The notes below the pieces were generated by a model. That model worked only from the letters and a program-made list of their open reading frames with translations. It was not told where the DNA came from and ran no database searches. 64,000 nucleotides of DNA from NCBI RefSeq assembly GCF_001294335.1, contig NZ_LGKG01000112.1, positions 124,001 to 188,000 on the forward strand. Reading direction: 5' to 3'. Position 1 is the first letter of the stretch; each line of letters begins with the position of its first letter. Made by a program: the position numbers and the translations under genes. Origin of the DNA: Streptomyces chattanoogensis. Lineage in GTDB: Bacteria; Actinomycetota; Actinomycetes; Streptomycetales; Streptomycetaceae. Shown piece by piece: positions 3,736 to 59,789 of this stretch.

Positions 3736-3766
3736 TGGCCGGAGAACGCCGTGCCACGCTTCCGTC

Positions 3767-3850: not shown

Positions 3851-4063
3851 CGTAGCGCCGCCCGGGGCCCGTCGGCCCCGGACAGCACCGCCGGCACCAC
3901 CGATTTCCCGCCGTCCCCATCGTCGCGGACGCGGCCGCACCCCCGCCCAGCAGCTCACCCCCGACGCGTTGCCACGCGCCGCGCTTCGGTGTGTCTGCAC
4001 AGGTCACCGCGGGTGTGTCGCGCCCGTCCGCACCCTTGAGCCCGCCCAGAAGGACGTACACCC

Positions 4064-6659: not shown

Positions 6660-6715
6660 TGGCCGGACTTCAGGAACATGATGTTGAGGAACGTGCGGAT
6701 GTTCAGGAGAAGCCG

Positions 6716-7249
6716 ATGACGGGCGCCACGGTGTGGCTGACCGGTCTGCCGAGCGCGGGCAAGACCACCATCGCGTACGCGCTGGCGGAGCGGCTGCGCG
6801 GCGAGGGCCGCCGGGCCGAGGTCCTGGACGGCGACGAGATCCGCGAGTTCCTCTCCGCCGGTCTGGGCTTCACCCGTGCCGACCGGCACACCAACGTCCA
6901 GCGGATCGGCTTCGTCGCCGAGCTGCTGGCGAGCAACGGGGTCATCGCCCTGGTGCCGGTGATCGCGCCGTACGCGGACTCCCGGGAGGCGGTGCGCAAG
7001 CGCCACCAGACCGAGGGCAGCGCCTATCTCGAAGTGCATGTGGCGACGCCCGTCGAGGTGTGCTCCGAGCGCGATGTGAAGGGGCTGTACGCCAAGCAGG
7101 CGGCCGGCGAGATATCCGGCCTGACCGGCGTGGACGACCCGTACGAGGCCCCCGAATCGCCCGACCTGCGCATCGAGTCGCACACCCAGACCGTGCAGGA
7201 GTCCGCAGCCGCGCTCCACGGGCTGCTCGTCGAAAGGGGACTGGCGTGA
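6716..7249 (+). CDS. cysC: Adenylylsulfate kinase
   Basis: The 177-residue enzyme phosphorylates APS to PAPS with ATP. The P-loop GLPSAGKTT begins at about residue 9, followed by VLDGDEIREFLSAGLGF and the DPYEAP segment conserved in APS kinases. I chose ATG 6716 because AGGAG lies 7-11 bases upstream. ATG 6659, which overlaps the cysH stop as TGATG, would add 19 residues and is the alternative. The region between the two starts contains an 11-bp palindrome (AACATGATGTT, 6675-6685) that may fold at the junction. CysD follows in a GTGA overlap. Confidence 0.9.
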   Translation: MTGATVWLTGLPSAGKTTIAYALAERLRGEGRRAEVLDGDEIREFLSAGLGFTRADRHTNVQRIGFVAELLASNGVIALVPVIAPYADSREAVRKRHQTEGSAYLEVHVATPVEVCSERDVKGLYAKQAAGEISGLTGVDDPYEAPESPDLRIESHTQTVQESAAALHGLLVERGLA

Positions 7250-8184: not shown

Positions 8185-8186
8185 CC

Positions 8187-9542: not shown

Positions 9543-9562
9543 ACATGCTCAAGGACATGTTC
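9541..9562. promoter_or_regulatory. Inverted repeat upstream of the sulfonate transporter leader
   Basis: GAACATG (9541-9547) and CATGTTC (9556-9562) form a perfect 7-bp inverted repeat with an 8-bp spacer. It starts on the cysN stop codon and lies about 70 bp before the leader-like ORF at 9634. It could be an operator for the transporter promoter or a small hairpin between operons. A related palindrome (AACATGATGTT) sits in front of cysC at 6675-6685. Confidence 0.3.
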
Positions 9563-9633
9563 TCCACTTTCGCCATTGAGGGCGGCCGGATCGGGAGCGG
9601 CGCTCTCGGCAGTGGCCAGGGAGGAGTCGGGCG

Positions 9634-9714
9634 ATGTGTGTGCTGACGATGCTCGACTCCGTACCCCCCACTCCCCCCTTCCGAAGATCCATTGACCTGC
9701 CGGGCGTGCCTTAG
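9634..9714 (+). CDS. Candidate leader peptide of the sulfonate transporter (26 aa)
   Basis: ATG 9634 to TAG 9712-9714 gives a 26-residue peptide, and GGGAGGAG sits 7-8 bases before the start. The peptide contains FRRSIDL, which echoes the RRHVDL core of the leader upstream of the sulfite reductase, and it has one Cys at position 2. It ends 42 bp before the transporter gene. This position and similarity suggest a second cis-acting leader controlling sulfur uptake. The match is short, so chance is not excluded. Confidence 0.45.
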   Translation: MCVLTMLDSVPPTPPFRRSIDLPGVP

Positions 9715-9756
9715 AAGGGCGCTCACCGTCCCGGCCCTCCGAGAGGAACTCCTCCC

Positions 9757-10863
9757 GTGTCTGCCGTTCGACACCGCCTGCTGGCGGCCGCCGTCACCGT
9801 CCCGCTCCTCGTCGGCGCGCTGGGCGCCTGCGGCTACGGCTCCGAGGCCAAGAAGGACACCGCTGCCCGGGTCGCCCCCAAGGGCCCCAAGACCGATGGG
9901 CTCGATCAGGTGAAGATCGGGCTCTTCGGCAACACCACGCACGCCACCCCGCTGATCGGCCTCAACAAGGGCCTGTTCCAGAAGGAACTGGGCGGCACGG
10001 AGATCAAGCCCTCCGTCTTCAACGCCGGTCCCGCCGAGATCGAGGCCCTCAACTCGGGCGCCATCGACATCGGCTGGATCGGCCCCTCCCCCTCGATCAA
10101 CGGCTATGTCAAGTCGCACGGCAAGAGCCTGAAGATCATCTCCGGTTCGGCCTCCGGCGGCGTCTCGCTCGTGGTCAACCCCAAGAAGATCAAGAGCCTG
10201 GACGACCTCAAGGGCAAGAAGATCGCCACCCCGCAGCTGGGCAACACCCAGGACGTGGCGCTGCTGAACTTCCTGGCGGAGAAGGGCTACAAGGTCGACG
10301 CCACGACCGGCAAGGGCGATGTCACCGTCCAGCGCATCGACAACAAGGTGACGCCGACCTCCTTCGAGCAGGGCGCCATCGACGCGGCCTGGGTGCCCGA
10401 GCCGACGGCCTCCAAGCTCGTCGCCGCAGGTGGCAAGCCGATCCTCGATGAGAAGAAGCTGTGGAAGGACGGCAAGTTCGTCATCACGAACGTGATCGTC
10501 TCCCAGAAGTTCCTCAAGGAGCACCCGAAGGCCGTCGAGGCAGTGCTGCGCGGCTCGGTGAAGACCAACGCCTGGATCCGGTCCCACCCGGACCAGGCGA
10601 AGCAGGCGCTCAACGAGCAGCTCGGCCAGCCGGAGTTCGCCGGCAAGAAGCTGCCGGACAACGTCATCGACCCGGCGTTCAAGAACGTCGCCATCACCGA
10701 TGACCCGCTGGCCGCCACGCTGCAGGAGGAGGCGGACCACGCCGTCAAGGCGGGCCTGCTGAAGAAGCCCGAGCTCAAGGGCATCTACGACCTCACCCTG
10801 CTGAACAAGGTGCTCAAGTCGGAGGGCAAGGCGCCGGTCGACGACGCCGGCCTCGGCAGCTGA
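9757..10863 (+). CDS. ssuA: Aliphatic sulfonate ABC transporter substrate-binding lipoprotein
   Basis: This is a 368-residue extracytoplasmic solute-binding protein. It has a lipoprotein signal peptide with lipobox LGAC at about residue 25. The mature part is an NMT1/SsuA-type periplasmic-binding fold: VKIGLFGNTTHATP, then INSGAIDIGWIGPSP-like text around residues 95-110, and TSFEQGAIDAAWVPEP. It would capture sulfonates (or taurine/sulfate esters) outside the membrane and deliver them to the permease at 11700. The location behind the cys operon and before a siroheme gene supports a sulfur role. The exact substrate is not readable. The start GTG 9757 is used. Confidence 0.88.
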   Translation: MSAVRHRLLAAAVTVPLLVGALGACGYGSEAKKDTAARVAPKGPKTDGLDQVKIGLFGNTTHATPLIGLNKGLFQKELGGTEIKPSVFNAGPAEIEALNSGAIDIGWIGPSPSINGYVKSHGKSLKIISGSASGGVSLVVNPKKIKSLDDLKGKKIATPQLGNTQDVALLNFLAEKGYKVDATTGKGDVTVQRIDNKVTPTSFEQGAIDAAWVPEPTASKLVAAGGKPILDEKKLWKDGKFVITNVIVSQKFLKEHPKAVEAVLRGSVKTNAWIRSHPDQAKQALNEQLGQPEFAGKKLPDNVIDPAFKNVAITDDPLAATLQEEADHAVKAGLLKKPELKGIYDLTLLNKVLKSEGKAPVDDAGLGS

Positions 10864-10909
10864 CACCCCTCCGTTCCGTAGCACCGCAGTCCCCCAGGAG
10901 GTGACACCG

Positions 10910-11713
10910 ATGACGACCACCACACTCACCAAGCAGCCCGCCCCGGCGGCTTCGGCCGGCACCGTGCCGTACGCGGCTCGAATCGACCACGTCTCGAAGT
11001 CGTTCGGCCGCCCAGGCGCGCAGCAGCATGTGCTGGATGACATCAGCATCGATGTCGCACCGGGCGAATTCGTCTGCCTCCTGGGGGCTTCGGGCTGCGG
11101 TAAGTCCACCCTGCTCAACCTCGTGGCCGGCCTCGACGCGCCGTCGGCCGGCAGCATCGAGACGCCCGGCGGCCGGCCGGCCCTGATGTTCCAGGAGCAT
11201 GCGCTCTTCCCGTGGCTGACCGCGGGCCGCAACATCGAACTGGCGCTGCGGCTGCGCGGGGTGCCGCGTGCCGAGCGCCGCGCCGAGGCCGAGCGGCTGC
11301 TCGAACTCGTCCGGCTGGGCGGGGCGTACGGCAAGCGTGTGCACGAGCTCTCCGGCGGTATGCGCCAGCGCGTCGCCATGGCCCGTGCGCTCGCCCAGGA
11401 CAGCCAGCTCCTGCTGATGGACGAGCCGTTCGCCGCGCTCGACGCCATCACCCGTGATGTCCTGCACGACGAGCTGACCCGCATCTGGCGCGAGACCGAC
11501 CTCTCGGTCCTCTTCGTCACCCACAACGTCCGCGAGGCCGTCCGGCTCGCCCAGCGGGTGGTACTGCTCTCCTCCCGTCCCGGCCGGATCGCCCGCGAGT
11601 GGCAGGTGGACATCCCCCAGCCGCGCCGTATCGAGGACGCCGCGGTCGCCGACCTTTCCGTCGAGATCACCGAACAGCTCCGTGGGGAGATCCGCCGCCA
11701 TGGCCAGCACTGA
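10910..11713 (+). CDS. ssuB: Aliphatic sulfonate ABC transporter ATP-binding protein
   Basis: This 267-residue ABC ATPase energises sulfonate import. I chose ATG 10910 because AGGAGG ends about 8 bases before it; the upstream in-frame GTG 10901 overlaps that site. Walker A is GASGCGKST, the signature is LSGGMRQRVAMARAL, Walker B is LLLMDEPFAALD, and the switch His is in LFVTHNVREA. It matches the nitrate/sulfonate/taurine subfamily in length and motifs. The permease gene starts 14 bp inside its 3' end. Confidence 0.92.
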   Translation: MTTTTLTKQPAPAASAGTVPYAARIDHVSKSFGRPGAQQHVLDDISIDVAPGEFVCLLGASGCGKSTLLNLVAGLDAPSAGSIETPGGRPALMFQEHALFPWLTAGRNIELALRLRGVPRAERRAEAERLLELVRLGGAYGKRVHELSGGMRQRVAMARALAQDSQLLLMDEPFAALDAITRDVLHDELTRIWRETDLSVLFVTHNVREAVRLAQRVVLLSSRPGRIAREWQVDIPQPRRIEDAAVADLSVEITEQLRGEIRRHGQH

Positions 11714-12647
11714 GACCAAGGCCCAGTCCGCCGCCGGACCGGCCGACGACGCAGCCGGTGCCACCACCGTCGCCACGCCCGACGATGCCTCCGGTGATCT
11801 CGCCGGTCTGGAGGCCGGGCTCGACGCCCTGGAATCCACCGTCGTCGCCCGTCAGCCCTGGCTGCGTACGGTTGCTTCAAAGACGTTCCCTCCTCTCATC
11901 GCCATCGCGATCGTGCTGGGGTTGTGGCAGCTCGCCTACCACTTCCAGGTCAAGCCGCACTATCTGCTGCCGAGCCCCGTCGACGTCGCCCGCTCCCTCC
12001 AGGAGAAGTGGCTCGAGGGCACGCTGCTGGGCTATGTGTGGACCAGCATCTCCCGCGGCGGCCTCGGCTTCCTGGCCTCGGTCGCCCTCGGTACGGTCCT
12101 CGGCCTGATCGTGGCCCGCGTCAAGGCCGTACGGTCCGCGATCGGCCCGATCCTGAGCGGTCTGCAGTCCCTCCCCTCGGTGGCGTGGGTCCCGGCGGCG
12201 ATCATCTGGTTCGGGCTGAGCGATGCCACCATCTACGCGGTGGTGCTGCTCGGCGCCGTCCCCTCCATCGCCAACGGCCTGGTGGCCGGCGTCGACCAGA
12301 TCTCACCCCTCTACCTGCGGGCCGGCCGCACCATCGGGGCCACCGGCCTGGCCGGCGTACGGTTCGTCCTCCTCCCCGCCGCGCTCCCCGGCTACATCGC
12401 CGGCCTCAAGCAGGGCTGGGCCTTCTCCTGGCGCTCGCTGATGGCCGCCGAACTCATCGTCAACGCTCCCGACCTGGGCACCGGCCTGGGCCAGCTGCTG
12501 GAGCAGGGCCGCGAGATCGGCGACTTGTCCTGGGTGCTGTCCGCCATCCTGCTGATCCTCATCGTCGGAATCGGTATCGAGCTGCTGATCTTCGCGCCGA
12601 TCGAGCGACGGGTGCTGCGCAGCCGCGGCCTCCTCGTCAAGAGCTGA
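11700..12647 (+). CDS. ssuC: Aliphatic sulfonate ABC transporter permease
   Basis: This 315-residue integral membrane protein overlaps the 3' end of the ATPase gene by 14 bp, so translation is coupled. The first 55 residues are an Ala/Asp-rich cytoplasmic extension, longer than in enterobacterial SsuC. About six hydrophobic segments follow, with the binding-protein-dependent transport EAA-type loop near GRTIGATGLAGVRFVLLPAALP. It forms the channel for the substrate bound by the lipoprotein at 9757. Confidence 0.9.
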   Translation: MASTETKAQSAAGPADDAAGATTVATPDDASGDLAGLEAGLDALESTVVARQPWLRTVASKTFPPLIAIAIVLGLWQLAYHFQVKPHYLLPSPVDVARSLQEKWLEGTLLGYVWTSISRGGLGFLASVALGTVLGLIVARVKAVRSAIGPILSGLQSLPSVAWVPAAIIWFGLSDATIYAVVLLGAVPSIANGLVAGVDQISPLYLRAGRTIGATGLAGVRFVLLPAALPGYIAGLKQGWAFSWRSLMAAELIVNAPDLGTGLGQLLEQGREIGDLSWVLSAILLILIVGIGIELLIFAPIERRVLRSRGLLVKS

Positions 12648-12661
12648 GCACGAGCCGGACC

Positions 12662-13447
12662 ATGAACGCACGCCCCACGCTCCTCGTCATCGCCCACGGC
12701 AGCCGCGATCCGCGGCACGCGGCGACCGTCTCCGCGCTCTGCGCGCGGGTGCGGACGCTGCGGCCGGGGCTGCGGGTCGAGGTCGGCTACCTCGACTTCA
12801 ACGCGCCCAGCGTGCCCCGTGTGCTGGAGCGTCTGTCGTCCGAGGGCGTGCGGGATGTGGTGGCTCTTCCTCTCCTCCTCACTCGCGCCTTCCACGCGAA
12901 GTCCGATATTCCGTCGGTGCTGCGGGAGGCCGCACGGCGGCTGCCCCTGCTGACCGTCCACCAGGCCGATGTGCTCGGCCCCTCCTCCCTCCTGACCGCC
13001 GCCCTGGAGCGCCGGTTGGAGGAAGCCGGGCTGCGGCCCGGCGACCGCCGCTCGACCGGGGTCGTCCTGGCCTCGGCGGGCTCCAGTGACCCGGAGGCGA
13101 TCGCAGTGATCGCTGAAATCGCGCGGGAGTGGCGGTGCACCGCCAACTGGTGTGCCGTGCGACCTGCGTTCGCCTCCGCTGCTTCTCCCGCTACGGGGGT
13201 CCCCCGTACCGCGGACGCCGTGCGGGCGCTACGGGCCGAGGGTGCCGACCGGGTGGCCGTCGCCCCCTACGTCATCGCGCCCGGCTTCCTCCCGGACCGC
13301 ATCGCCACCGGGGCCCGCGAGGCCGGTGCGGACCTCCTCGCGCCGGTGCTCGGCCCCGCCCCCGAGCTGGCCCGGCTGCTGCTCCGCCGCTACGACCAGG
13401 CGGCGGAGAGCCGCGTCCGGCCGGAGCTGACGGCGCTGAGCGCCTGA
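12662..13447 (+). CDS. Sirohydrochlorin chelatase (CbiX/SirB type)
   Basis: This 261-residue chelatase inserts Fe2+ (or Co2+) into sirohydrochlorin, the last step to siroheme, which the sulfite reductase at 4064 requires. Two tandem CbiX-like halves are visible. The first has LLVIAHGSRDPRH (metal-binding His near residue 12) and a second His in TRAFHAKSDIP near residue 77. The second half has VVLASAGSSDPEA and VAPYVIAPGFLPDRI. It starts 14 bp after the permease, so it is probably co-transcribed with the transporter. This arrangement ties cofactor supply to sulfur uptake. Confidence 0.88.
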   Translation: MNARPTLLVIAHGSRDPRHAATVSALCARVRTLRPGLRVEVGYLDFNAPSVPRVLERLSSEGVRDVVALPLLLTRAFHAKSDIPSVLREAARRLPLLTVHQADVLGPSSLLTAALERRLEEAGLRPGDRRSTGVVLASAGSSDPEAIAVIAEIAREWRCTANWCAVRPAFASAASPATGVPRTADAVRALRAEGADRVAVAPYVIAPGFLPDRIATGAREAGADLLAPVLGPAPELARLLLRRYDQAAESRVRPELTALSA

Positions 13448-13464
13448 CGCATGCCGGGTGCCGG

Positions 13465-13490
13465 GTGCCGGCGGGTCATGCGGCCGGCAC
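13465..13490. terminator. Bidirectional hairpin between chelatase and glycosyltransferase
   Basis: GTGCCGGC at 13465-13472 pairs perfectly with GCCGGCAC at 13483-13490 around a 10-base loop. The hairpin lies between two convergent genes, and its loop holds the stop codon of the glycosyltransferase. There is no clear T tract, as is common for Streptomyces terminators. Confidence 0.5.
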
Positions 13491-14567
13491 CACGGACGCC
13501 GCCCCCGGCCGGAAATCGGCCCGGCCCTTCTCGTAGACCGTGAGGCCCCTGGCCAGGTGCAGCGGCACCAGCACCAGCTCCACGACGAGTGCCTTCCAGG
13601 CGTATACGAGGTTGACGGCCTTGGTTGCGTAGACGCAGGGGAGATTCACCAGGACGCCGCTCAGCGGGAGTTTGCGGCGGCGGGCTGCGTAGATCAGTGG
13701 TGGCGCCGTCAGCAGCAGCTCGGCTCCGGCCCACCATCCGAAGGCGACCGGCAGCGGCTGGTCGGTGGCCGCGGCGGCCACGAAGGGGGTGGCCCACCAC
13801 AAGGGCGCGGTGAGGATCTCCAGCAGGGCGAGCAGCACCCAGACCGCCAGCAGGGGTTTGTGGATGACCAGCCGCCCGAGATGCAGCCGGACGTTCTGGC
13901 AGAAGCCGGCCATCCAGCGCCAGACCTGTTTCCGCAGATAGGTGAGGTCTTCCGGGTCGGCGGCCAGGGCGACCGCGTCCGCGACGTAGACGGCACGCCG
14001 GCCCGCGATCTGCTGGCTCCAGGTGTAGTCCATGTCCTCGACGATGGTCCGTTCCGGGAATCCGCCGAAGGCCACCAGGTCGTCGCGCCGGAAGACGGAG
14101 CAGCAACCCGAGCACACCATGGGGCTGTTGGCGCGAGCCTGGATGGGGCGGTGCCAGTGGAACCCGAAGAGATACTCGGTGGAGCGGCCGCGCTCCCAGA
14201 CGGTGCGGGTGTGGCGGGTGCGGACCGTGCCCGCCGCGACGGAGACGCCGGGGTCGTCGAAGACGGGAAGGACCGTCGCGATGTAGTCCGGCGCGAGGAC
14301 GGTGTCCGCGTCGACGGCCAGTACGAGGTCGGTGGTGCAGTGCGGAAGCGCGTAATTCTGCGCCTTGGCCTTGCTGCCGAGGTTGCGTGACGGGCGGAGA
14401 ACGGTGACGCCGTGTGAGGCCGCTACTTCGCCCGTGCGGTCCGTGGAGGCGTCGTCCACGACCAGGATGCGGTCAGGTGGGACCGTTTGCCGGGCAAGGG
14501 ACTCCAGCGTCGCCGGAAGTCCCTCCTCCTCGTTGTGAGCTGGGACGATGACGGTGATGGTGTGCAT
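13476..14567 (-). CDS. GT2-family glycosyltransferase with C-terminal membrane segments
   Basis: This 363-residue protein starts at ATG 14567, where GGGGGAG lies a few bases upstream. The N-terminal GT-A fold has VIVPAHNEEEGLP, the nucleotide-binding VVDDASTDRT, the DxD-like VDADTV and the acceptor-site motifs VEDMDYTW and QVWRWMAGF, close to Q/R-x-x-R-W. Several hydrophobic segments after residue 235 place it at the membrane, as in processive polysaccharide synthases. It probably polymerises or transfers a sugar from a nucleotide sugar; donor and product are unknown. An N-terminal membrane helix seen in many relatives may be encoded in the overlapping upstream frame (see 14473-14673). Confidence 0.85.
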   Translation of the reverse strand: MHTITVIVPAHNEEEGLPATLESLARQTVPPDRILVVDDASTDRTGEVAASHGVTVLRPSRNLGSKAKAQNYALPHCTTDLVLAVDADTVLAPDYIATVLPVFDDPGVSVAAGTVRTRHTRTVWERGRSTEYLFGFHWHRPIQARANSPMVCSGCCSVFRRDDLVAFGGFPERTIVEDMDYTWSQQIAGRRAVYVADAVALAADPEDLTYLRKQVWRWMAGFCQNVRLHLGRLVIHKPLLAVWVLLALLEILTAPLWWATPFVAAAATDQPLPVAFGWWAGAELLLTAPPLIYAARRRKLPLSGVLVNLPCVYATKAVNLVYAWKALVVELVLVPLHLARGLTVYEKGRADFRPGAASVVPAA

Positions 14568-14673
14568 GCTGGGCTCCCCCTGTCCTGCGGATGGCGTCGG
14601 CCGCGACAACGGTCAGGCCGATCACGCCGTAGACGATGGTGCTGATGCCGATGAACGGCAGTCCTCCGTGCAT
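14473..14673 (-). CDS. Possible small membrane peptide overlapping the glycosyltransferase start
   Basis: A 66-codon frame starting at ATG 14673 encodes a clear hydrophobic segment (LPFIGISTIVYGVIGLTVV), followed by a charged region. Its last third runs inside the glycosyltransferase gene in another frame and looks non-coding there (His/Arg/Gly-rich). There are two readings: a real small membrane protein coupled to the glycosyltransferase, or the original N-terminal membrane helix of that enzyme, separated by an indel. The hydrophobic stretch is the only support. Confidence 0.35.
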   Translation of the reverse strand: MHGGLPFIGISTIVYGVIGLTVVAADAIRRTGGAQHAHHHRHRPSSQRGGGTSGDAGVPCPANGPT

Positions 14674-14778
14674 GTCACCGACCGTAGCGGGATAGGGGTG
14701 TTGAGCGGTTTCGGAGGCAGCCTCCTGTGGATAACTCCGCCTTCGCGGTGCTCGGGGTGGCTGAGTCCTGCGGCGGGC

Positions 14779-15180
14779 TCAGCGCCCGACGAGCGCATCG
14801 AACAGCGGCCAGCCGTCGATCTCCCTCTCACCGGCAGCCACCGGCAGGGCGCCGCGTGCCGCTGCCTCCTCGAGGAATCCGCGGACGACGGCGGGCTCGT
14901 GGAGGTTGAGGTGGAGAGGGGGGCGGGGGCCATGCGCGCCGCCGGGTACGTGATCCCGGTCGCCGGCTCCGCCGATCCCACCCGAACCTTCAAGGTAGCG
15001 GCCGGGGGCGCCCTCGCTGAAGACGAGACGCAGAGTTGCCCTGGCGCCCTCGTAAGGAAGATGGAGCGAGAGAACCTCGCAGCATTCCGGCGGCCGGTGC
15101 CTGTGACGCACCGACCAGAGCCATGTCGCACCGCCCACGGCAAGGCGGCGAAGCTGGTGATCCTTCCGCACGGCGGCCAT
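14779..15180 (-). CDS. Conserved hypothetical protein
   Basis: This encodes a 133-residue soluble protein from ATG 15180; an in-frame start at 15225 would add 15 residues. Visible blocks are TWLWSVRHRH near the N-terminus, CCEVLSLHL, LRLVFSEGAPGRYLEG, LNLHEPAVVRGFLEEA, and WPLFDALVG at the C-terminus. I know this pattern from uncharacterised Streptomyces proteins but not a function. Its conserved Trp-Arg-His strand and the closing helix suggest a compact alpha/beta domain. No cofactor motif, membrane segment or signal is seen. It is transcribed in the same direction as the flanking genes but separated from both. Confidence 0.65.
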   Translation of the reverse strand: MAAVRKDHQLRRLAVGGATWLWSVRHRHRPPECCEVLSLHLPYEGARATLRLVFSEGAPGRYLEGSGGIGGAGDRDHVPGGAHGPRPPLHLNLHEPAVVRGFLEEAAARGALPVAAGEREIDGWPLFDALVGR

Positions 15181-15233
15181 CCTACGGAGCGTGCCGCGCT
15201 CGTACGGGCGCGCCCGCCACCGCACACAACGGC

Positions 15234-15274
15234 GCCGGCCGCCGCGCCCCGTGGGGGAGAGCGCGGCGGCCGGC
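15234..15274. terminator. GC-rich hairpin terminator after the subtilisin gene
   Basis: A perfect 14-bp stem (GCCGGCCGCCGCGC at 15234-15247 with its complement at 15261-15274) encloses a 13-base loop. It sits 26 bp past the stop of the leftward serine protease at 15300. No T run follows; stem strength and position make it a likely terminator. Confidence 0.6.
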
Positions 15275-15299
15275 GGTGGGTGCTGAGGGGTTGAGCTGG

Positions 15300-16505
15300 T
15301 TACTCGACGACCTTCAGCAGCTTGTTGGGCGTGCCCTCACCCGGGTTGCTGATCTTGTCGGGCGTGGCACCGTCCGTCAGGGCCTTCTCCACGTCCGCGG
15401 GCTTGGCGTCCTTGTGGTTGGCCAGGTAGACCGCGGCCGCACCGACGACGTGCGGGGTCGCCATGGACGTGCCGGAGATGGTCTTGGTGGCGTCGTCGCT
15501 GCCGTTCCAGTCCGAGGTGATGTCGGAGCCCGGAGCGTAGATGTCCACCACGCTGCCGAAGTTGGAGAAGTCCGACTGCTCGTCCTTGTTGGTGCTGGAG
15601 GCCACCGTGATGGCCTCCTTGACGCGGGCCGGGGAGCCCTGGCCGGCGTCGGTGGACTCGTTGCCCGCCGCGACGCCGAAGGTGACACCGGAGTCGACGG
15701 CCTTCTTCACGGCCGCGTCCAGCGCCTCGTCCGCGCCGCCGCCGAGCGACATGTTGGCGACCGAGGGGCCCTTGTGGTTCTTGGTGACCCAGTCGATGCC
15801 CGCGACGACCTGCTCGGTGGTGCCGGAGCCCTGGCCGTCGAGGACCTTGACGGCCACGATCTTGGCCTTCTTGGCGACGCCGTGCTTCTCACCGGCGATG
15901 GTGCCCGAGACATGGGTGCCGTGGCCGTTGTCGTCCTCGGCCTTGTCGCTGTTGTCGATGGCGTTGAAGCCGTACGACGCACGGCCGCCGAAGTCCTTGT
16001 GGCTGATGTGGACACCGGTGTCGATGACGTAGGCGGTGACGCCCTCACCCGCGCTGTCGGGGTAGTTGTACTTCTTGTCGCCCTGGGTGTCCGCCTGGTC
16101 GATGCGGTCCAGGCCCCACGACGGCGGGTTGTCCTGGGTGGCGTCGATGTGGAACTTCTTGTTCTGGACGACCTTGTCGACGGCCGGGTCGGCGGCCAGG
16201 CGCTTGGCCTCTTCCTCGTTGAGACCGGTCGTCGAGAAGCCGTCGACGGAGGAGTAGCTCCGCTTGACCTGGCCGCCGTACTTGGCGGCGAGGTCGGTGC
16301 TCGCGGCGGTACGGATCGACTTCTTCAGCATGACGATGTAGCTGCCGTTCACGGCACCCTTGGCCTGGGCGCCGTAGATCTTGCCCTCGGCAGGAGCGGG
16401 CGAAGCACCGGCGGTGACCGCGGTGATGGTGGCGATACCAGTGGCGGCAACTGCGGCGGTTATCGCCGTGATGAGCCGCTTCTTGCTGGAACGCTTGTGA
16501 TCCAT
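15300..16505 (-). CDS. Secreted S8 family serine protease (subtilisin/proteinase K type)
   Basis: The 401-residue preproprotease starts at ATG 16505 behind GAGGAG. A Sec signal peptide (MDHKRSSKKR plus a hydrophobic core, cleavage near residue 35) is followed by an I9 propeptide inhibitor domain (about 45-110, with YIVMLKKS). The peptidase S8 domain carries the triad: Asp in AYVIDTGV (about residue 161), His in NGHGTHVSG (about 196) and Ser in SGTSMATPH (about 346), with the oxyanion Asn in AAGNEST. There is no C-terminal pro-protein convertase or sorting domain. It would mature by autocleavage outside the cell and degrade extracellular protein. A strong hairpin follows the gene. Confidence 0.95.
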   Translation of the reverse strand: MDHKRSSKKRLITAITAAVAATGIATITAVTAGASPAPAEGKIYGAQAKGAVNGSYIVMLKKSIRTAASTDLAAKYGGQVKRSYSSVDGFSTTGLNEEEAKRLAADPAVDKVVQNKKFHIDATQDNPPSWGLDRIDQADTQGDKKYNYPDSAGEGVTAYVIDTGVHISHKDFGGRASYGFNAIDNSDKAEDDNGHGTHVSGTIAGEKHGVAKKAKIVAVKVLDGQGSGTTEQVVAGIDWVTKNHKGPSVANMSLGGGADEALDAAVKKAVDSGVTFGVAAGNESTDAGQGSPARVKEAITVASSTNKDEQSDFSNFGSVVDIYAPGSDITSDWNGSDDATKTISGTSMATPHVVGAAAVYLANHKDAKPADVEKALTDGATPDKISNPGEGTPNKLLKVVE

Positions 16506-45777: not shown

Positions 45778-48342
45778 TTATGCGCGGTCGGACAGGTGCA
45801 GCGCGGACAGCAGGGTGTGTACGGAGGCGTCGGCGAGGTGCCGGGCGCGGGGTGCCGTCACCATGCCGTCGATATAGCTGAAGTTCCAGGCGAGTCGGCC
45901 GTGGCTGGTGAGGGCGGTGGCCACGAGGGCTCCCGTCACCGAAATGCCCGCGACGAGCTGGGTACCGGAGACGCGCCAGGGGCCCACCCGGTCGGGGAAG
46001 CCGTGGCGGCCGAGGTTGGAGAGGCACAGGTTGAGCGGGCCCTGTTCGTCCAGATAGCGCATGAAGGCCTCGCCGTCGGCCGGTGTCCTGGGCCCGGCCC
46101 GGTCCAGCAGGTTGACCAGGGACAGGTGTTCCGCACGCTGCCGGCGGTCCGCCAGGTCCCGGGCGATGGCGCGGGCCATGGGCCACAGGGGCGTGCCGGG
46201 CCGGTAGAGGACGCGGGAGGGAAGGGTGGCCGCGTAGGTGCCGGCCTCGTCGTAGGCGACGGCGGGGTCCAGTTCGCCGCGGAAGTCGAGCGGGGAACCG
46301 ATCGAGAAGTGGGCCGGCTCCGGTGTGCCCGCCTCCTGGGCGACGGCGGTCACCATGGCAGCGGCAAGGGCTCCGTGCACCGTGGTCCCGTGCCGCTTGC
46401 AGGCGTCCACGAGCAGCTCCAGCTGCCCGGCGGTGAGGGACCGGTGCACCATCCGGGTGCGCCGCCGTGCGAAGGGGACCGGCCGGCTGGGGGTGAGGCG
46501 CCGTGGCTGCAGCCGGCGGGCCTCCTCCGCGTCACGCTCCATCAGGGCCGCAAGAGCGGCGGCGCCCGCCTCGCCCCTGTGGGGGCGCGGAAGCAGATCC
46601 TCCGCGGCGGGCAGCGCCCGGCGCGACGTACGGGACGGCTCCTCGCCGGCGCTCAGCTGCGCGGCGATGTCGATCCACTCCCCGAGCACGGACAGCCCCG
46701 TCATGCCGTCGGCCATGCAGTGCGCCGCCGTGAGGAGGAGGTCATGGACGTCCGCCCCGCGCCCGGCGCCCTGTTGTGTGATCACGACGGCCCGCAGCAG
46801 GGGTCCGGTGCGCCAGTCGATGCCCTCGGCGAGCTCGTGCTCGTCGATCTCGCGTTGCCACCGTGCGTCCGCCTCGGGGTCGCCGGCCGGCACCTGGACG
46901 TGGCGCAGCGGGATGGGCCGTCCGCCCACCGGACGGAACGCGGGGGCTGCGCCCTCGTCGTCGCCGCTGATCGCGACGCGCAGCAGAGGGTGCCGGGCCT
47001 GGAGAACGTCCAGGGCGCGGCGCAGCAGCGGCAGCTCCAGGGGGCCGTGGAGCCGGGCCCGGATGACGCCGTTGAGCGGTGAGGTCCGGTCCGCGATCCA
47101 GTACCAGCGCTCCAGGGGGCTGAGGTTCCGGCGGACGCGGGGTTCGGGGTCCGGGATGCCGGGGAAGGTGAGGGCCTCCTCGTTCCGGCGGGCAAGTTCC
47201 TGACGGGCCGTCAACCTGAAGTAGTCGTCCCGGACCTTGCGCCGTTCGGGGGTGTCGGCCTGTTCGAGGTCACTCATCGACCGGGACGCGGCGACCATGG
47301 CCCGGGTGCGGTCGCGGCGGCGGTCCTCGTACGTCCGCAGGGCGAGCGGCAGATCGTCGCGCGCCCCGGGCTCGGCCAGGGTGTGGGCCAGGACGACGGC
47401 GTCCTCGATCGCCATGGCCGAGCCCTGGCCGAGGGTGGTCAGCATGGGGTGCGCGGCGTCGCCGAGCAGGGTGACGGGACCCTCTCCCCACCGCTCCAGG
47501 AAGGTGCGGTCGCGGGAGGGCACGGCGAGGATGTCCCCGGGCGGGGTGGCTTCGATCACGGCCCGGACCTCGTCGGCCCAGCCCGCGTAGGCCTGGGCGA
47601 TCTCGTCCTTGGTGCCGTCCCAGGCGTGCGAGCGGGCGGCGGGCATGTTCGTGGTGCCCCACCAGTAGGCGCGGCCGTGGCCGATGTCGACGAGGCCGAA
47701 GCGCTGTCCGCTGCCCCAGTAGTGGCGCACGCCGCCCGGGGCGAGGGCGGGGTGGCGGAAGGGGACGATGCCGAGCCAGCAGACATAGCCGCTGTCCTGA
47801 GACGTCTCGGGCCCGACCAGCCGGGCGCGGACGGCGGAGTGGAAGCCGTCGGCGCCGATGAGGAGGTCGCCGTGGGCGGAACTGCCGTCCTCGAAGCGGA
47901 CGGTGACGCCCGTGTCGCCGGTCTCGAAGCCGGTCGCGACGGCGCCCAGCCGGACGGGGCAGTCGGCGGCCGCGTCCAGCAGGGCCTCCTGCAGGTCCGA
48001 ACGGCTCAGGCAGACGCTGGGCGCGCCCGCCTTCTCGCAGACCTCCTTGAACGGCAGGTCCCTGATCTCCCGGCCGCGGTGGTCCAGGACCGTGAAGGAC
48101 TCCACGACCCGGCCGCGCTTGTCCAGGCCGAGGTCGATGCCCAGCGTGGCGAGCGCGGTGACGGCGTTGGACATCACCGACAAACCGGAACCGGCGGCGC
48201 GCAGCTCGGTGGCGCGCTCGTACACCGCCACCTCGATGCCGACCCGCCGGAGGGCGACGGCGCAGGTCAGTCCGCCGATACCGGCTCCGATGACGAGGGC
48301 CTTCACCGGCCAGTCGCCTGGCATTGCCGACTTACGTGACAT
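45778..48342 (-). CDS. FAD monooxygenase fused to PapA5/condensation-type acyltransferase
   Basis: This 854-residue protein starts at ATG 48342 (GAGGAG upstream), 4 bp after the NRPS stop. Residues about 8-400 are a class A flavin monooxygenase: VIGAGIGGLTCAVALRRVG (FAD), LIGADGFHSAVR (DG motif) and LLGDAAHPMLTTLGQG (GD motif). From about residue 420 a second domain begins with NLSPLERWYWIADRTSPLNG, typical of PapA5-like acyltransferases related to NRPS condensation domains. It contains the active-site H-x3-D-G as AAHCMADG (about 539) and closes with LSNLGRHGFPDR. The two parts are joined in one frame without a stop. It may hydroxylate the peptide and then acylate it. I do not know a described protein with this order. 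Confidence 0.88.
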   Translation of the reverse strand: MSRKSAMPGDWPVKALVIGAGIGGLTCAVALRRVGIEVAVYERATELRAAGSGLSVMSNAVTALATLGIDLGLDKRGRVVESFTVLDHRGREIRDLPFKEVCEKAGAPSVCLSRSDLQEALLDAAADCPVRLGAVATGFETGDTGVTVRFEDGSSAHGDLLIGADGFHSAVRARLVGPETSQDSGYVCWLGIVPFRHPALAPGGVRHYWGSGQRFGLVDIGHGRAYWWGTTNMPAARSHAWDGTKDEIAQAYAGWADEVRAVIEATPPGDILAVPSRDRTFLERWGEGPVTLLGDAAHPMLTTLGQGSAMAIEDAVVLAHTLAEPGARDDLPLALRTYEDRRRDRTRAMVAASRSMSDLEQADTPERRKVRDDYFRLTARQELARRNEEALTFPGIPDPEPRVRRNLSPLERWYWIADRTSPLNGVIRARLHGPLELPLLRRALDVLQARHPLLRVAISGDDEGAAPAFRPVGGRPIPLRHVQVPAGDPEADARWQREIDEHELAEGIDWRTGPLLRAVVITQQGAGRGADVHDLLLTAAHCMADGMTGLSVLGEWIDIAAQLSAGEEPSRTSRRALPAAEDLLPRPHRGEAGAAALAALMERDAEEARRLQPRRLTPSRPVPFARRRTRMVHRSLTAGQLELLVDACKRHGTTVHGALAAAMVTAVAQEAGTPEPAHFSIGSPLDFRGELDPAVAYDEAGTYAATLPSRVLYRPGTPLWPMARAIARDLADRRQRAEHLSLVNLLDRAGPRTPADGEAFMRYLDEQGPLNLCLSNLGRHGFPDRVGPWRVSGTQLVAGISVTGALVATALTSHGRLAWNFSYIDGMVTAPRARHLADASVHTLLSALHLSDRA

Positions 48343-48346
48343 GTGG

Positions 48347-51300
48347 TCAGTTCTCCTCGGGGGATCCGGCATCGGGGGATCCGGCCGGGCCGGATCCGAT
48401 CAGGTCGGCGACCGTTCTCGCCACTTGCGCCACGTGCGGTTCTTCCATGATCGAGAGGTGGTCACCGGGCACGCTGACGACCTGGAGCGGGCCGTCGGTC
48501 ATCGCGCTCCAGCCGTTGGCCGGGTCCGCGTGGCGGCTTCCGGCGGCGCCGTGCATCGCGGCGAGGACGTCCGGCAGCGGTTCCATGGCCCGGATCAGGG
48601 TGAGGCCCTGGTCCCCGGGCCCGGGCCGGTAGTCCAGCGCCGCCTGCCAGTTCGCCCGGTAGACGCGGAAGAGCCGGCGTATGACGGCCCCCGAACTGCC
48701 GGCCGGCAGCACACCCGCATCGGTCGCGAGACGGGCGATATGGTCGAACTTCTCCTCCAGCGAGGTCAGTTCGTCGGGTATGGCCTCCATCGGGGAGTCG
48801 CCGCCGCGCTCCAGCCAGAGCAGTTCCCAGAAGAACCACCCCAGCAGTGCGTCGTCGGCGTGGCGGGGACGCTCTCCCTGGGTCAGCGCGGTCGTGTCCA
48901 GGAGCACCAGCCGGGCCACGTCCTCACCCGAGGCCCGCAGCCGGCGGGCCATCTCGAAGGCGACGAAACCGCCGAAGGACCACCCGCCGAGGGTGTACGG
49001 ACCGTGCGGCTGCACCCTCCGCAGCGCGGCGAGGTAACTGTCCGCGATCTCCTCCACGGTGCGCAGCGGCGTGGTGCCGGGGTCCGCCCCGGCCGCCTGG
49101 AGCGCGTACAGCGGCTGATCGTCCGGAAGGTGCCGGGCGAAGCGTACGTAGCACAGGACATTGCCGCCCATGGGATGGACCAGGAACAGCGGCGGGCGGG
49201 TGCCCTCCGGGCGGATGGGCACCAGGGGGTCGTACGCCGCGACCGCGCCGCCCGCGCGCAGCCGTGCGGCGAGCCCGGACACGGTGGGGGCCGCGATGAA
49301 CTCGGACAGCGGGATGTTCACCCCGTAGCGCTGCTCGATCCGGACCACCAGCCGCATCGCGGTGAGGGACGTGCCGCCCAGGTCGAAGAGGCTGTCGTGC
49401 ACGCCGACGGCGGGCCGTTGCAGCAGGTCCGCCAGCATCTCGGCCAGCGCGCGTTCGTAGGCGTCGCCCGGCCCGGCCCCGGTGGCTTCAGTGGTGGGGG
49501 CGAGCGGGATCCGGCGCAGGGCGGCGTCGTCCCGCTTCCCGCTGGGGGTCAGCGGGAGGTGGGTCACCCATTGCAGGTGGGCGGGCACCATGTGGTCGGG
49601 CAGCGTGGTGCGCAGCCGCCTGCGGATGCCGGCCAGGTCCGCGGCGGTGCCTTCGCCGACGAGGAAGGCCGCGAGGAGGCATTCGCCGTTCCCCTGCTGC
49701 CGGGCCACGACCGCGGCGTCGCGCAGGCCCGGGTACCGCCGGGCGAGACCGGTGACGGCCAGCTCCACCTCGGCGAGTTCGACGCGGAAACCGCGCACCT
49801 TGACCTGGGTGTCGGCCCGGCCGGCGTAGGCGATCGTCCCGTCGGGCAGCACCAGGCCGAGGTCCCCGGTGTCGTAGAGCATGCGGTCCTGGCCCGCGAA
49901 GGGATGCGGGACGAAGCGCTCCTTGGTGAGGTCGGGGCGGCCTTCGTAGCCGTCGGCCAGGCAGCTGCCGCCGAGGTGGATGGTGCCGCGCGCTCCGGCG
50001 GGCACCGGGCGCAGCCGGTCGTCCAGCACATGGGCCTCGGCGCCGTCGACGGGGCGGCCGATCGGGGGCAGCGCCGGGAAGGCCGCCGGATCCCCGGTCA
50101 TGGTGAAGGCGGTGGCGACATGGGTCTCCGTCGGCCCGTACTGGTTCTCCAGGACGGCGCCCGGGAGCGCGGCGCACAGCCTGCGGATCTCCTGGGTGAC
50201 GCGCAGCTGTTCGCCGGAGGAGATCAGCACCCGCAGCGCACGGGGCGTGATGCCCAGCGCCTGTGCGGTCTCGGCCAGTTGCTGGAGTGCCACGTAGGGG
50301 AGGAAGACCCGCTCGATGCCCGCGCGGTCGATCAGCCGCAGCAGTTCCGGCATATCGCGCCGCTCGGCGTCGCCCACCAGGTGCAGCGTGCCGCCGGAGC
50401 ACAGCGTGGAGAAGATCTCCTGGAAGGAGACGTCGAAGCTCAGCGGCGCGTACTGGAGGGTGACGCCGCCCGTGGCGCCGCTGGTGGCCGCTGTCTGCCA
50501 GGCGACCAGGCCGGCCAGGGAACGGTGCGGCATGGCCACGCCCTTGGGCCGGCCGGTGGAGCCGGAGGTGAAGAGGACGTAGGCGGTGCTGTCGGCGGGG
50601 ATCTGTGCCGGTGGCTCCGCGCCGGGGTCCGTGGCCGGACCGGTCAGCGACTCGGCGGGCAGCAGCAGCGACGGGTCACCGGCCAGGTGGGCATGGGGAG
50701 CGTCGGCGATGACGCGGAAGGGCCGGGCCGCCTCCAGCATCGTGGCCAGCCGCCGGGCGGGGTAGCCGACGTCCAGCGGCACCACGGCGCACCCGGCCCG
50801 CAGCACGCCCAGGAGCACGGCGACCGTCTGCGGTGAGCGGTCCATGGCGATCCCGATCCGGGCCCGCGGCGGGGCTCCGAGCGCGCACAGCCGCCGGGCC
50901 ACCCGGTCTGCCGCCCCGGCCAGCCGTGCGTAGCTCCACCGCTCCTCACCGCTCACCACGGCCGTCGCGTCCGGAGTGCGGGCGGCCTGGCGTGTGAAGC
51001 GTTCGACGACCGTGGGACGGGGCGTGGTGCGGGCGAGGACCGGCCGGTCGGCGAGGAAGGCGAAGTCGGGCTCCGCGTGCGGGTCCGTCACCATCCTCCG
51101 CAGGATCTTGCGGTACCCGTCGGCGAAGAGGCGGGCCTGGCCGGCGGAGAATCCGTCGCCGTCGATCCGCAGCCATACGCGTCCGCCGTCCGGTTCGGTG
51201 ACCGCGTTCACCAGGAGCCGGAAACTGGTCTCTTCCCAGGTCCGGAAGTCCCGCAGCCGTATGCCCGGGAGGCGGAGGACCTCGGACAGCTGGTGGAAGT

Positions 51301-55927: not shown

Positions 55928-58900
55928 TCAGCTGCGGACTCTCTGCCGGGCTGTGTCCACGGCATCAGGGTCGACGTCCCGCGCCCGCTGGCCCATCTCG
56001 TCCCAGAACCGGCGCATACCGGCGACCGGCACCTTGCGCTGCCATGGAGCCTTCCGCCAGAACTGCAGACCGAGCCACGACCGGGGCCGCCACCACCGCA
56101 GCAGATCGTGCTGCTGCAGGCAGAAGACCTCGCTGAACTCCATCCGCAGGTCCTCGACCTTCGCCGGGTAGGGGCACATCCTCAGCCGGCACTCGTCCGT
56201 GCAGTTGGAGCCCGGCTGCGAGGCGCGCTCCGCGCCCCGTACGGGGTCCAGGCGGTTGCGGTCCCTGATCACACAGGACGGGATCTGCGTCCGCTCCTGG
56301 GAACAGAAGTCCACGACGCGGAACAGGTCCTTCGGCCGGTACGCCCGCTCGCCGAGCACCACCAGCAGCAGTACGTCCGACAGCAGTTGCTGGGCGATGG
56401 GATCGAGGGTGCTCCACCCGCTGGACGGCGGGATCCAGAGGTTGTGGGCGCGCTGGTCCCCGGGAAGACCGACCTGTGTACCCACGCCGTCGGCCGTGGC
56501 GGCGTCATCGATCCACAGATACCGCTCCGGCCGCCGGGTCTGCAGCGCGCGGACCGCCAGCTCGCCCGCCGCCTTCACCAGCGGGTGTTCCTTCTCCTTG
56601 CCGTCGCCCATGGCCAGCCACTCCTGGACCTGCCCCTGGGGATCGGAACCGTGCCCGCGGATCGGCATGTCCTCCGTGACGTCATCGGGCAGGGACCACA
56701 GCGTCAGGGCATGCAGAAGGGTCAGCCGGGTGTACCAGAACGTGCTGCGCTTCAGCATCTCCTGGGCCTGCTTGACCAGGAACTCCCGGGCCTGCCGGTC
56801 GGACTGCGGGACCGGACGGCGGTTGGCGGCGTACCTGAATCCCTGGGCAAGGGCAACGCCGAGGCCGATGTTGATGCCTGGCGTGGCCTCGGCGGCCGGA
56901 GAGCCGGATTCCCCGGTCGCGATACGTACCCAGTTCTCCAGGTCGGCGCGCGGGGTGCCGATGTGACGGGTCATCCTGGCGGAGTCGACGAGCATGGGGA
57001 GGATCCATGCCTGCAGGGTGTCGCTGTACCATCTCCGCTTCTCCGCCATGGCCTCGTGCTCGGCCCACTGCCACTCTTCCCGTTCCAGGTACCTCACCCA
57101 CACCCGCCGCCGCGCGCGGTCCATCCGCTCTCCCTGCGTCGGGTCCGACTTCGGCTTCCAGTGGCATCCGCGCTCCGGACGGTCCGTGGCGATGACCGCA
57201 TCGAGTTCGGGCTCGCGCAGAGAGTGGTACACGGCCAGGTACGCCTGCTCGCCGCCGGCTCCTATCTCCTGCACGATCCCGGCGCGCACCCGGTAGTCCA
57301 GTTCCTTGCAGCCGACCTTGAACAGTTCCAGGTACGCGGGATTGCAGCTGCGGTCGGCAGCCACCCGGCGGGCCGCCGCGCCGCACTGTTTCACCAGAGT
57401 GAGTTTCGCCTCGCGCAGCCGCACGGGGTCCTCGCCCTGTTCCAGGTCTTCCCATCTCTCCTTGATCATCTCGATGAGGCGCTGCTGTTGCGGGGCGGCC
57501 GCGACGTTGTCGATCTCCACGGCGGTGCCGAAGAGCTCCAGGGCCCTCAGGCGCGGGCTGCCACGGTCGTCAAGGCCGCCTGCCGGGGAGCTGCCGGCCT
57601 GCCACCGCCCCTGCATGTGCTCCCCCCTCTTCGCCTTCTTCAGCAGGTCCAGCGCCCGCTGCTCCAGCAGCTTGGGCAGGGTGAAGTCCGCACACGCTTC
57701 GGGTCTGCTCGCACCACAGCCACAGCTACGGCGATGACCTGCGCAGTGCCCCTTCCACGAGCGCGAGCGGAGCGTGAGGGCTATGAGGAGTTCCCGTCCG
57801 CCGGCTTCCAGGGCCGTGGCGAGGAGGCGTTCCGACGCCTTCGGACGCGACGGTGTGTCCCCGGCCGCCGGGAGGAGACGGGAACCGAGATATGCCTGCA
57901 TGATGCTGTGCTGGAAGTGGACCTTCTCCCCTTCCTCGTGGACCAGCCCCATGCGCCTGCCCCATGTGGCAGCCAGCCGGACATCGATCCGGGCTCCGTG
58001 CACCGGGACCTTCCTGTCCTCGCGCCCGTACTCGGGGCCCCAGCACTGCTGAGCCCTGACGGCCTCCATGCGGTCGTCGAACTCCTTCGGATCGCGCGAC
58101 CACCGCAGCGTCGACAGCGCCCGGTCCAGTTTCTCGGCGACGCACTGGTTCCATGCGTCGCCGTCGACAGGCCGCCCTGTGCCCACGGACGGGTCGAGTT
58201 CCCACAGCCCGACATCGGCACGGTCCGACGCCAGCCCGATGCAGGCGAGCGCGGAGAGGTACTCCACCACCACCTGTCTGGTGTCGCGGCCGATCGGCAG
58301 TTCGGGGTGGATCTCCCCGTCGACCAGCGCGTCGACCCACCTCTCCAGGAGGTCCGCCCGCAACGCCCAGCTGTCGTGGAGCATCAGGTCGGCCCCGCCC
58401 TCGTCCTGCGTCCACAGCGGCTCCAGCAGGTTCTTGCCGTGCAGATCCCTTGCGATCTGCAGGTAGAGCGGGGATTCCGACATTTTGGCGGCTTCCACGA
58501 CCCGGTCGAGCAGCATCGGGTCCGAGCGCCGGCCGCCGCTGCCGGCGATGTACTGCAGTGCCGCCTCATCGCTCAGCGGCTCCAGCTCCGTGATCGCGGC
58601 CTGCATCGCCCGCAGCGGGTCGTGCGGCCGCGAGGCGATGACCAGCGGCAGCCCCTCCTCGTCGGCCCGGGCGATCGCCTCCCGGATCAGAATGTCGCGC
58701 TGGCCGTTCACCCGGTCGTCGTGGTTGAGCGCCTCTTCCAGACCGTCGGCGAGCACCACGATCCGGTCCGTGTGCTGCCGGAGCCACCGCCAGACCCGGT
58801 CCACTTCGCCATCGGACCGGACCACCGGCCGCACGATGTCCTCGAAACGCTTACGGGCCAGCTCGGCGAAGTCCAGACGGTCCTGGGCATCGCGCAGCCG

Positions 58901-59557
58901 TACCGCTATGGGGACCGCGGCCTCCGCGGCAAGCCGCTCGGCAAGACGGACCAGTACCGCCGTCTTGCCCGTCCCGACCTTGCCGGAGACGACATGCGGA
59001 CGCCGGACCTTCCGTTCCCGCAGATTGTTCATGATCGAGTTGCAGAGCTGGTCGCGGCCGACCACCTCGCCCATCAGACTCCCTGCCGTCGGCACGAAGC
59101 GGCAGGGGTCGCTCCTCGCCCGGCTCGCACAGAACCGGCGGATCCGTCTCAGCCGCCAGTAGAGGAACAGCGCGGTCGAGGCGGCCAGCAGCAGCACCGG
59201 CATGGCCACGTCCTGCACCGCGGGCGTAACGGGAATGCGCACCAACTCCGCCGAACGGTGATGCTTCTCGCGGAGGGTGCCCACGACGCCGTCGAGCACC
59301 CACGCCACGAGCGCCAGAGCCAGGAGGGAGACGATCCAGGCTGCCAGGGTGGTCCGCCACGGATTCCACCACCGATGGGCATGGATGGCGCCCCGGCGCA
59401 GCAGCCACCGGGTACGCCAGCGCCACAGCGGAGCGACGAACCAGAGGCGAAGGTGCGCCCAGCCCTCCCTGATGACGCCGCCCTCCGGCGGCCCCGTCAC
59501 GATCCTGACCCTGGGCGGTCGGAACGTGGCCTTGGGCGGGTGGAGTTGGTGCGCCAT
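55928..59557 (-). CDS. Membrane-anchored STAND/NACHT-like NTPase
   Basis: This 1209-residue protein starts at ATG 59557 with GGAGG 8 bases upstream. The N-terminus (1-65) is basic and Pro/Trp rich. Two membrane helices lie at about 70-92 and 115-137. Walker A is SGKVGTGKTAVL (about 190), and the Walker B-like strand is RIVVLADGLEEAL (about 275). A long helical region without recognisable repeats follows. A central Cys/His cluster (GHCAGHRRSCGCGASRPEAC, about 610-630) and a C-terminal CTDECRLRMCPYP with SEVFCLQQHDLL could bind metal or nucleotide. The layout fits STAND sensors with an unknown effector. Defence or signalling is an inference. No partner gene is coupled to it. Confidence 0.75.
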   Translation of the reverse strand: MAHQLHPPKATFRPPRVRIVTGPPEGGVIREGWAHLRLWFVAPLWRWRTRWLLRRGAIHAHRWWNPWRTTLAAWIVSLLALALVAWVLDGVVGTLREKHHRSAELVRIPVTPAVQDVAMPVLLLAASTALFLYWRLRRIRRFCASRARSDPCRFVPTAGSLMGEVVGRDQLCNSIMNNLRERKVRRPHVVSGKVGTGKTAVLVRLAERLAAEAAVPIAVRLRDAQDRLDFAELARKRFEDIVRPVVRSDGEVDRVWRWLRQHTDRIVVLADGLEEALNHDDRVNGQRDILIREAIARADEEGLPLVIASRPHDPLRAMQAAITELEPLSDEAALQYIAGSGGRRSDPMLLDRVVEAAKMSESPLYLQIARDLHGKNLLEPLWTQDEGGADLMLHDSWALRADLLERWVDALVDGEIHPELPIGRDTRQVVVEYLSALACIGLASDRADVGLWELDPSVGTGRPVDGDAWNQCVAEKLDRALSTLRWSRDPKEFDDRMEAVRAQQCWGPEYGREDRKVPVHGARIDVRLAATWGRRMGLVHEEGEKVHFQHSIMQAYLGSRLLPAAGDTPSRPKASERLLATALEAGGRELLIALTLRSRSWKGHCAGHRRSCGCGASRPEACADFTLPKLLEQRALDLLKKAKRGEHMQGRWQAGSSPAGGLDDRGSPRLRALELFGTAVEIDNVAAAPQQQRLIEMIKERWEDLEQGEDPVRLREAKLTLVKQCGAAARRVAADRSCNPAYLELFKVGCKELDYRVRAGIVQEIGAGGEQAYLAVYHSLREPELDAVIATDRPERGCHWKPKSDPTQGERMDRARRRVWVRYLEREEWQWAEHEAMAEKRRWYSDTLQAWILPMLVDSARMTRHIGTPRADLENWVRIATGESGSPAAEATPGINIGLGVALAQGFRYAANRRPVPQSDRQAREFLVKQAQEMLKRSTFWYTRLTLLHALTLWSLPDDVTEDMPIRGHGSDPQGQVQEWLAMGDGKEKEHPLVKAAGELAVRALQTRRPERYLWIDDAATADGVGTQVGLPGDQRAHNLWIPPSSGWSTLDPIAQQLLSDVLLLVVLGERAYRPKDLFRVVDFCSQERTQIPSCVIRDRNRLDPVRGAERASQPGSNCTDECRLRMCPYPAKVEDLRMEFSEVFCLQQHDLLRWWRPRSWLGLQFWRKAPWQRKVPVAGMRRFWDEMGQRARDVDPDAVDTARQRVRS

Positions 59558-59789
59558 GGCCGCCACCTCCGTACGCTGCCGCCGGGAGTGGCGCTTGCGT
59601 CTGGGACGGTCGGAAGAAGCCCATCGGCATTGCGGCCCGCTGGGCGCCCGACCCCGATACTCCGGTGCGGGATGTTGCAGTGAGGCATCTCCTCCTTCCA
59701 CAGCTACCACCCCTCACCCGGCCCCGCCACCGGGCGACAAGGCCCCTTCCCTGCCTGTGACGTGGGGGCGCGGGCCCTGGAGACGGCGG

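Follow-up and report, generated by a model that had tools for sequence, protein, structure and literature searches.

A 64,000-nucleotide stretch of the Streptomyces chattanoogensis genome (contig NZ_LGKG01000112.1, positions 124,001 to 188,000; here called the window) contains a minus-strand gene (45778..48342) encoding an 854-amino-acid protein in which an LgnC/AzeC-type Baeyer-Villiger monooxygenase is fused to an AzeD-type condensation-fold domain. The fusion is real and is present in many relatives. It joins two enzymes already known as a pair, in a variant of a known pathway. We consider it rather likely that the protein is a monooxygenase-dehydratase acting on the product of the adjacent nonribosomal peptide synthetase (NRPS), in a pathway to a pyrrolizidine or bicyclic-carbamate alkaloid. 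An earlier note on this DNA had proposed a flavin monooxygenase joined to a PapA5-type acyltransferase and called the combination a new tailoring logic for a small peptide. Its coordinates were correct, with the minus strand to be added, and it rightly saw two complete domains in one chain. However, "new tailoring logic" is too strong, because the two enzyme types are encoded by consecutive genes in the Pseudomonas aeruginosa aze cluster (azeC, PA3328; azeD, PA3329) and by separate genes of one cluster in Streptomyces loci L016, L017, L108, L109, and L110.

One reading frame for two domains

The stop-free minus-strand open reading frame (ORF) spans 48372 to 45778 and encodes 864 amino acids; residue numbers are those of its translation (P0001). 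The likely start is the ATG at 48342, which gives 854 amino acids, the length of a 100% identical database entry (P0003). A putative ribosome-binding site, GAGGAG (48353..48358, minus strand), lies within the end of the NRPS gene, the stop codon of which ends at 48347, leaving the 4-bp gap described in the earlier note. The monooxygenase domain comprises residues 21 to 395 (47188..48312, minus strand), and the AzeD-type domain comprises residues 417 to 864 (45781..47124, minus strand). They are joined by a linker at about residues 396 to 416 (47125..47187, minus strand), in which the predicted local distance difference test score (pLDDT) falls below 50 at residues 407 to 411. The junction had been placed at 47150 to 47250, which is near its true position but slightly too high.

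A missing stop codon or a frameshift at the junction is ruled out. The frame is open across it, and of 318 collected proteins, 68 match both halves at >100 bits (the query and its identical database copy counted), each with a linker of 14 to 17 residues, extrapolated from the alignment ends. In-frame fusions are also found beside a homologous NRPS gene in L012 (S. coffeae), L105, L106, L107, and L118 (a linear plasmid of Streptomyces sp. YIM 121038). By the species names of database entries, S. rimosus, S. noursei, and S. albofaciens have fused homologues as well. Residues 388 to 430 contain no in-frame start codon for a separate C-terminal protein. The monooxygenase and the linker both have a GC content of 0.95 at third codon positions, and the C-terminal half has 0.91. 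Both halves appear to be under constraint by a crude count of the ratio of nonsynonymous to synonymous substitution rates against four relatives (L012, L105, L106, and L107), which gave 0.23 to 0.37 for the monooxygenase, 0.34 to 0.52 for the C-terminal half, and 0.08 to 1.19 for the short linker.

The architecture had been thought undescribed. A literature search returned no description of a monooxygenase-AzeD fusion and no characterized fused member, but the main azabicyclene and clipibicyclene papers were outside its reach, so absence from print is not established, and with 68 proteins the architecture is not rare. The available portions of PMC10458595, PMC13200232, and PMC12566167 contain nothing on such a fusion.

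Sequence features of the two halves

The N-terminal half matches Pfam FAD_binding_3 with 104.7 bits (cut-off, 22) over residues 23 to 362. Motifs of LgnC-type enzymes are GxGxxG, YWWxTKN, and GDAAH (PMC7820566, in the part available). The window protein has GAGIGG at residues 29 to 34 and GDAAH at 304 to 308, and its YWWGTTN is one change from the remaining motif; its relative in L118 has an exact YWWGTKN. YWW is present in all 61 aligned fused proteins, many of which have YWWAA. Within residues 217 to 238 (47659..47724, minus strand), conservation and spacing equate H217, R224, Y236, and W238 with LgnC H200, R207, Y219, and W221, a correspondence set by a constant offset of 17, the spacing, and the motif, rather than by direct alignment to the LgnC sequence. 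In LgnC, H200A and W221A abolish activity, Y219F lowers it by 95%, and R207Q loses about half (PMC11457151, in part). The His/Tyr/Trp set was found in 73 of 73 fused rows and in none of 78 lower-identity paralogue control loci. We rejected an HpxO-like urate hydroxylase: HpxO (NF033623) was the best NCBIfam match of this half, but its 254.1 bits are far below the cut-off of 500, and the LgnC-type residues point elsewhere. By these features, the N-terminal half is an LgnC/AzeC/PxaB-type flavin Baeyer-Villiger monooxygenase, predicted to insert oxygen.

The C-terminal half matches Pfam PapA_C with 50.1 bits (cut-off, 30) over residues 638 to 742. Its match to Pfam Condensation (PF00668; residues 439 to 580) is below the cut-off, at 27.6 against 30.6 bits. 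The motif HCMADG at residues 551 to 556 (46705..46722, minus strand) supplies the H-x3-D-G (H551, D555, and G556) that had been noted before. It shares this motif and its fold with PapA5-type acyltransferases and NRPS condensation domains. However, the NCBIfam PapA5 model (NF006787) gave 52.9 bits against a cut-off of 396, and the closest solved structure, 8s6l, is titled "AzeD dehydratase" (48% identity over 433 residues). Acyl transfer, as proposed in the earlier note, is therefore unsupported, and by sequence and fold the half is an AzeD-type domain, with dehydratase activity predicted. The 50 structure matches listed, mostly to the monooxygenase half, included no PapA structure and were uninformative on the fold. 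Another AzeD-family protein is encoded in L119 (8959-10332; a plasmid of Streptomyces sp. NBC_01260) with genes for a type III polyketide synthase, a P450, methyltransferases, a DAHP synthase, and a prephenate dehydratase.

Gene neighborhood and distribution

Three consecutive minus-strand genes encode the NRPS (55714-48347), the fused protein (48342-45778), and a short-chain dehydrogenase/reductase (SDR; 45755-44868). The NRPS is bimodular, with condensation (C), adenylation (A), thiolation (T), and thioesterase (TE) domains ordered C-A-T-C-A-T-TE; its listed start is a TTG, and the true start may be slightly downstream. The TE domain comprises residues 2175 to 2437 (48404..49192, minus strand). 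The specificity code of A1, DVWHFSLVD, we take to be that of Ser, and automatic reading gave a Ser code in 27 of 30 further loci (none in L112, other readings in L118 and L154). The A2 code, DVQFISQVA, is Pro-like and is close to that of the Xenorhabdus homologue in L018 (DVQYISQVI). The link to the NRPS drawn in the earlier note is supported, as is its proposal that the protein tailors a small NRPS product. The SDR is in an AzeE-like position and has a homologue at 17 of 31 loci (window included). Directly upstream of the NRPS gene, a large NACHT ATPase protein of 1260 amino acids (55928..59710, minus strand) is a candidate cluster member; no homologue with >40% identity was found near the NRPS in 13 other loci compared. 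A Pfam scan of 20 window ORFs found no azeJ-, fabH-, ketosynthase (KS)-, or acyl carrier protein (ACP)-like gene. Self-resistance through a clpP in the cluster was rejected: there is none in the window, and the genome's three clpP matches are all on C196 and C162, contigs other than the window's own (C112).

A contig scan kept 80 loci from at least 467 relatives; eight with at least 47% identity (L012 to L018 and L086) were taken as cluster loci and the rest, at 40% or less, as controls. Genome counts are lower bounds, with the best few candidates per genome scored. The monooxygenase (E ≤ 1e-105) was found in at least 22 of 246 sampled Streptomyces genomes, counting that of the window, and all 22 have a homologous NRPS at the locus. 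Five carry the fusion, one of them (L112) with its AzeD half interrupted by a frameshift. In four, AzeD is encoded separately at the locus, and in thirteen no AzeD lies in the stretch examined; one of these thirteen (G113) encodes a distant relative of AzeD on a different contig. AzeD relatives (E ≤ 1e-40) were found in at least 12 of 246 Streptomyces genomes, at least 2 of 296 in a class sample, and at least 1 of 198 in a phylum sample, each count including the window's genome.

Trees of the two domains were made with FastTree, with long branches flagged. The AzeD-domain tree has 11 label changes, a count that includes L110, mislabeled there as fused, and one of its clades holds 68 fused and 14 single rows. 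L110 was rejected as a fusion; its two parts are in different frames despite a 905-codon open frame. The monooxygenase tree has 8 label changes, and one of its clades holds 69 fused and 11 single rows, with the fused but frameshifted L112 among the latter. P0078, labeled fused in both trees, looks frame-disturbed and was excluded as an independent fusion. Within these clades, single rows P0067 and P0069 begin inside a former monooxygenase tail, and P0071, P0072, and P0074 carry worn monooxygenase remnants. Therefore, in these five, fusion came first and splitting or loss followed.

Several relatives differ in arrangement. A second, distant fused lineage (P0070 with L116/L117; genome G527) has Tyr in place of the motif His, and its AzeD half is possibly noncatalytic; the fused gene lies upstream of the NRPS gene in L117. 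L142 (genome G038) has a homologous NRPS with neither AzeD nor SDR found within 20 kb, both apparently lost. The L118 cluster (3667-15402) carries the NRPS, fused, and SDR genes on the 968-kb linear plasmid pSSP121038, with a transposase gene between the fused and SDR genes; other mobile-element genes surround it, and horizontal transfer is possible. The annotation of one relative, encoded on a named plasmid, gives solely an FAD-dependent monooxygenase. Database protein P0081 is a single chain with an AzeD-type domain ahead of an SDR domain, which makes it a further fusion drawn from the same three neighbors. The predicted protein P0066 (named S. stramineus) starts like an NRPS thioesterase, continues as the monooxygenase, and stops partway through the AzeD part; it is an NRPS-oxygenase fusion or a sequence error. 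PhyH-type dioxygenase-like genes directly precede the separate AzeD gene in L108 (11722-12678) and L109 (7404-8060; a weak match, below the cut-off) and may encode another tailoring enzyme of this cluster type.

Proposed pathway and known systems

A published route leads from acyl-Ser-Pro through release of an indolizinone and Baeyer-Villiger oxidation to a [5+7] carbamate and on to pyrrolizidine or carbamate products (PMC11177316, in part). For the window, we infer that the NRPS is loaded with an acyl group, Ser, and either Pro or one of its analogues and that its thioesterase frees a bicyclic acylamino-indolizinone. The N-terminal half would then place oxygen beside the ring ketone, giving a [5+7] carbamate that either persists or undergoes contraction to a pyrrolizidine. 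The C-terminal half, of condensation/PapA fold, would take water from the same alkaloid rather than transfer an acyl group. Fusion would hold unstable intermediates near both active sites, at a fixed ratio.

Two dehydration steps can be proposed. It is plausible, if short of probable, that the SDR reduces a ketone and that the resulting alcohol, most likely one in the acyl side chain, is dehydrated by the AzeD half. More tentatively, the AzeD half might dehydrate the hemiaminal from ring contraction directly after the Baeyer-Villiger step, which would fit fusion to an oxygenase better. We slightly favor the side-chain step because azetidomonamide B carries a crotonyl group and metaze A keeps its azetidopyrroline core with a dienoyl chain (PMC13386464, in part); core reduction therefore seems unneeded in those clusters. 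Over 31 loci (window included), 10 have both SDR and AzeD, 3 AzeD alone, 7 SDR alone, and 11 neither (Fisher P = 0.067). The table excludes L111, a duplicate of L017, and L113 to L115, which have no NRPS or monooxygenase in the stretch. The first 18 loci gave P = 0.047, and reassigning the damaged AzeD copies of L112 and L117 gave P = 0.007, a division made post hoc and with the relatedness of loci uncontrolled.

Several findings weigh against these proposals. The side-chain step is weakened because SDR and AzeD each occur without the other (SDR in 7 of 18 AzeD-less loci, AzeD without SDR in 3 of 13), and no KS or ACP gene is among the window ORFs scanned. The ring-contraction step is weakened because that water is lost rapidly without an enzyme in the Pxa system (PMC11177316, in part). 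Ser, not Gln, is aligned with LgnC Q350, in a part of the alignment that is uncertain. The "dehydratase" label comes from the PDB title of 8s6l, for which we found no paper. The L119 protein belongs to an unrelated type III polyketide synthase cluster; therefore, the AzeD family is not tied to one reaction. The motif His is Tyr in P0070 and L116, and the L142 monooxygenase, 84% identical to the window's, stands alone with no AzeD at its locus. Finally, the predicted structure leaves the domain arrangement unfixed (predicted template modeling score, 0.61), and channeling is a proposal.

Other roles for the C-terminal half were weighed against dehydration of the released alkaloid. That it is a true PapA-like acyltransferase, acylating a hydroxyl or amine made after oxidation, we consider unlikely: beyond the dehydratase title of its closest solved relative and the low PapA5 score, metaze A and azetidomonamide B are each described with one acyl chain (PMC13386464, in part), which the NRPS starter C domain could supply. 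A role as partner, scaffold, or binding domain of the monooxygenase is favored by P0070 and L116, which keep the fusion despite the Tyr, with the NRPS also kept in L116/L117. However, 69 of 71 fused rows and all 127 single rows retain both His and Asp of the motif, and we regard a noncatalytic role as very improbable. Some condensation-fold domains are known to dehydrate seryl intermediates, and AzeD matches, at a low score (22 bits), a chain of AmbE, which has a modifying condensation-type domain. Both points would suit an AzeD-type domain that acts before the monooxygenase, converting NRPS-bound seryl to dehydroalanine. We nevertheless think this improbable, since a homologous NRPS occurs without AzeD in the stretch examined at 18 of 31 loci, Xenorhabdus L018 included, and pxaA alone yields the indolizinone in E. 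coli (PMC11794875, in part). Therefore, such NRPSs can perform the dehydration step themselves.

With the monooxygenase-dehydratase reading preferred, the annotation is corrected, and "monooxygenase plus acyltransferase" gives way to a sequence of steps that can be tested. As a natural link, the fusion suggests that AzeC and AzeD, for which we found no joint role described, work together in this alkaloid family, and the fused gene offers a single-gene handle on what the AzeD fold does to a released small molecule. Two members of this family, azetidomonamide A and metaze B, inhibit ClpP via a bicyclic carbamate (PMC13386464, in part). A more doubtful proposal is that the single chain both ring-expands and dehydrates the NRPS-released indolizinone without freeing the reactive carbamate, thereby deciding between carbamate warhead and pyrrolizidine as the cell's product. 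If true, the protein would be a two-domain catalyst of a new kind, and the condensation-fold dehydratase would have a new setting, that of free-standing chemistry on a released alkaloid.

LgnC (legonmycin), PxaB (pyrrolizixenamide), and BraC (brabantamide) share with the window enzyme the His/Tyr/Trp essential in LgnC, the GxGxxG and GDAAH motifs, and an adjoining Ser/Pro NRPS. However, they are given as single enzymes in the portions of the literature consulted, whereas the window enzyme is fused to a second domain. Unlike the P. aeruginosa azetidomonamide/azabicyclene cluster, the window lacks clpP, its 20 scanned ORFs include nothing like azeJ, fabH, or an ACP gene, and its product probably contains Pro instead of azetidine carboxylate. 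The two clusters share the placement of both enzyme types between a like NRPS (azeB) and SDR (azeE), with azeC and azeD as two genes in P. aeruginosa and as one in the window.
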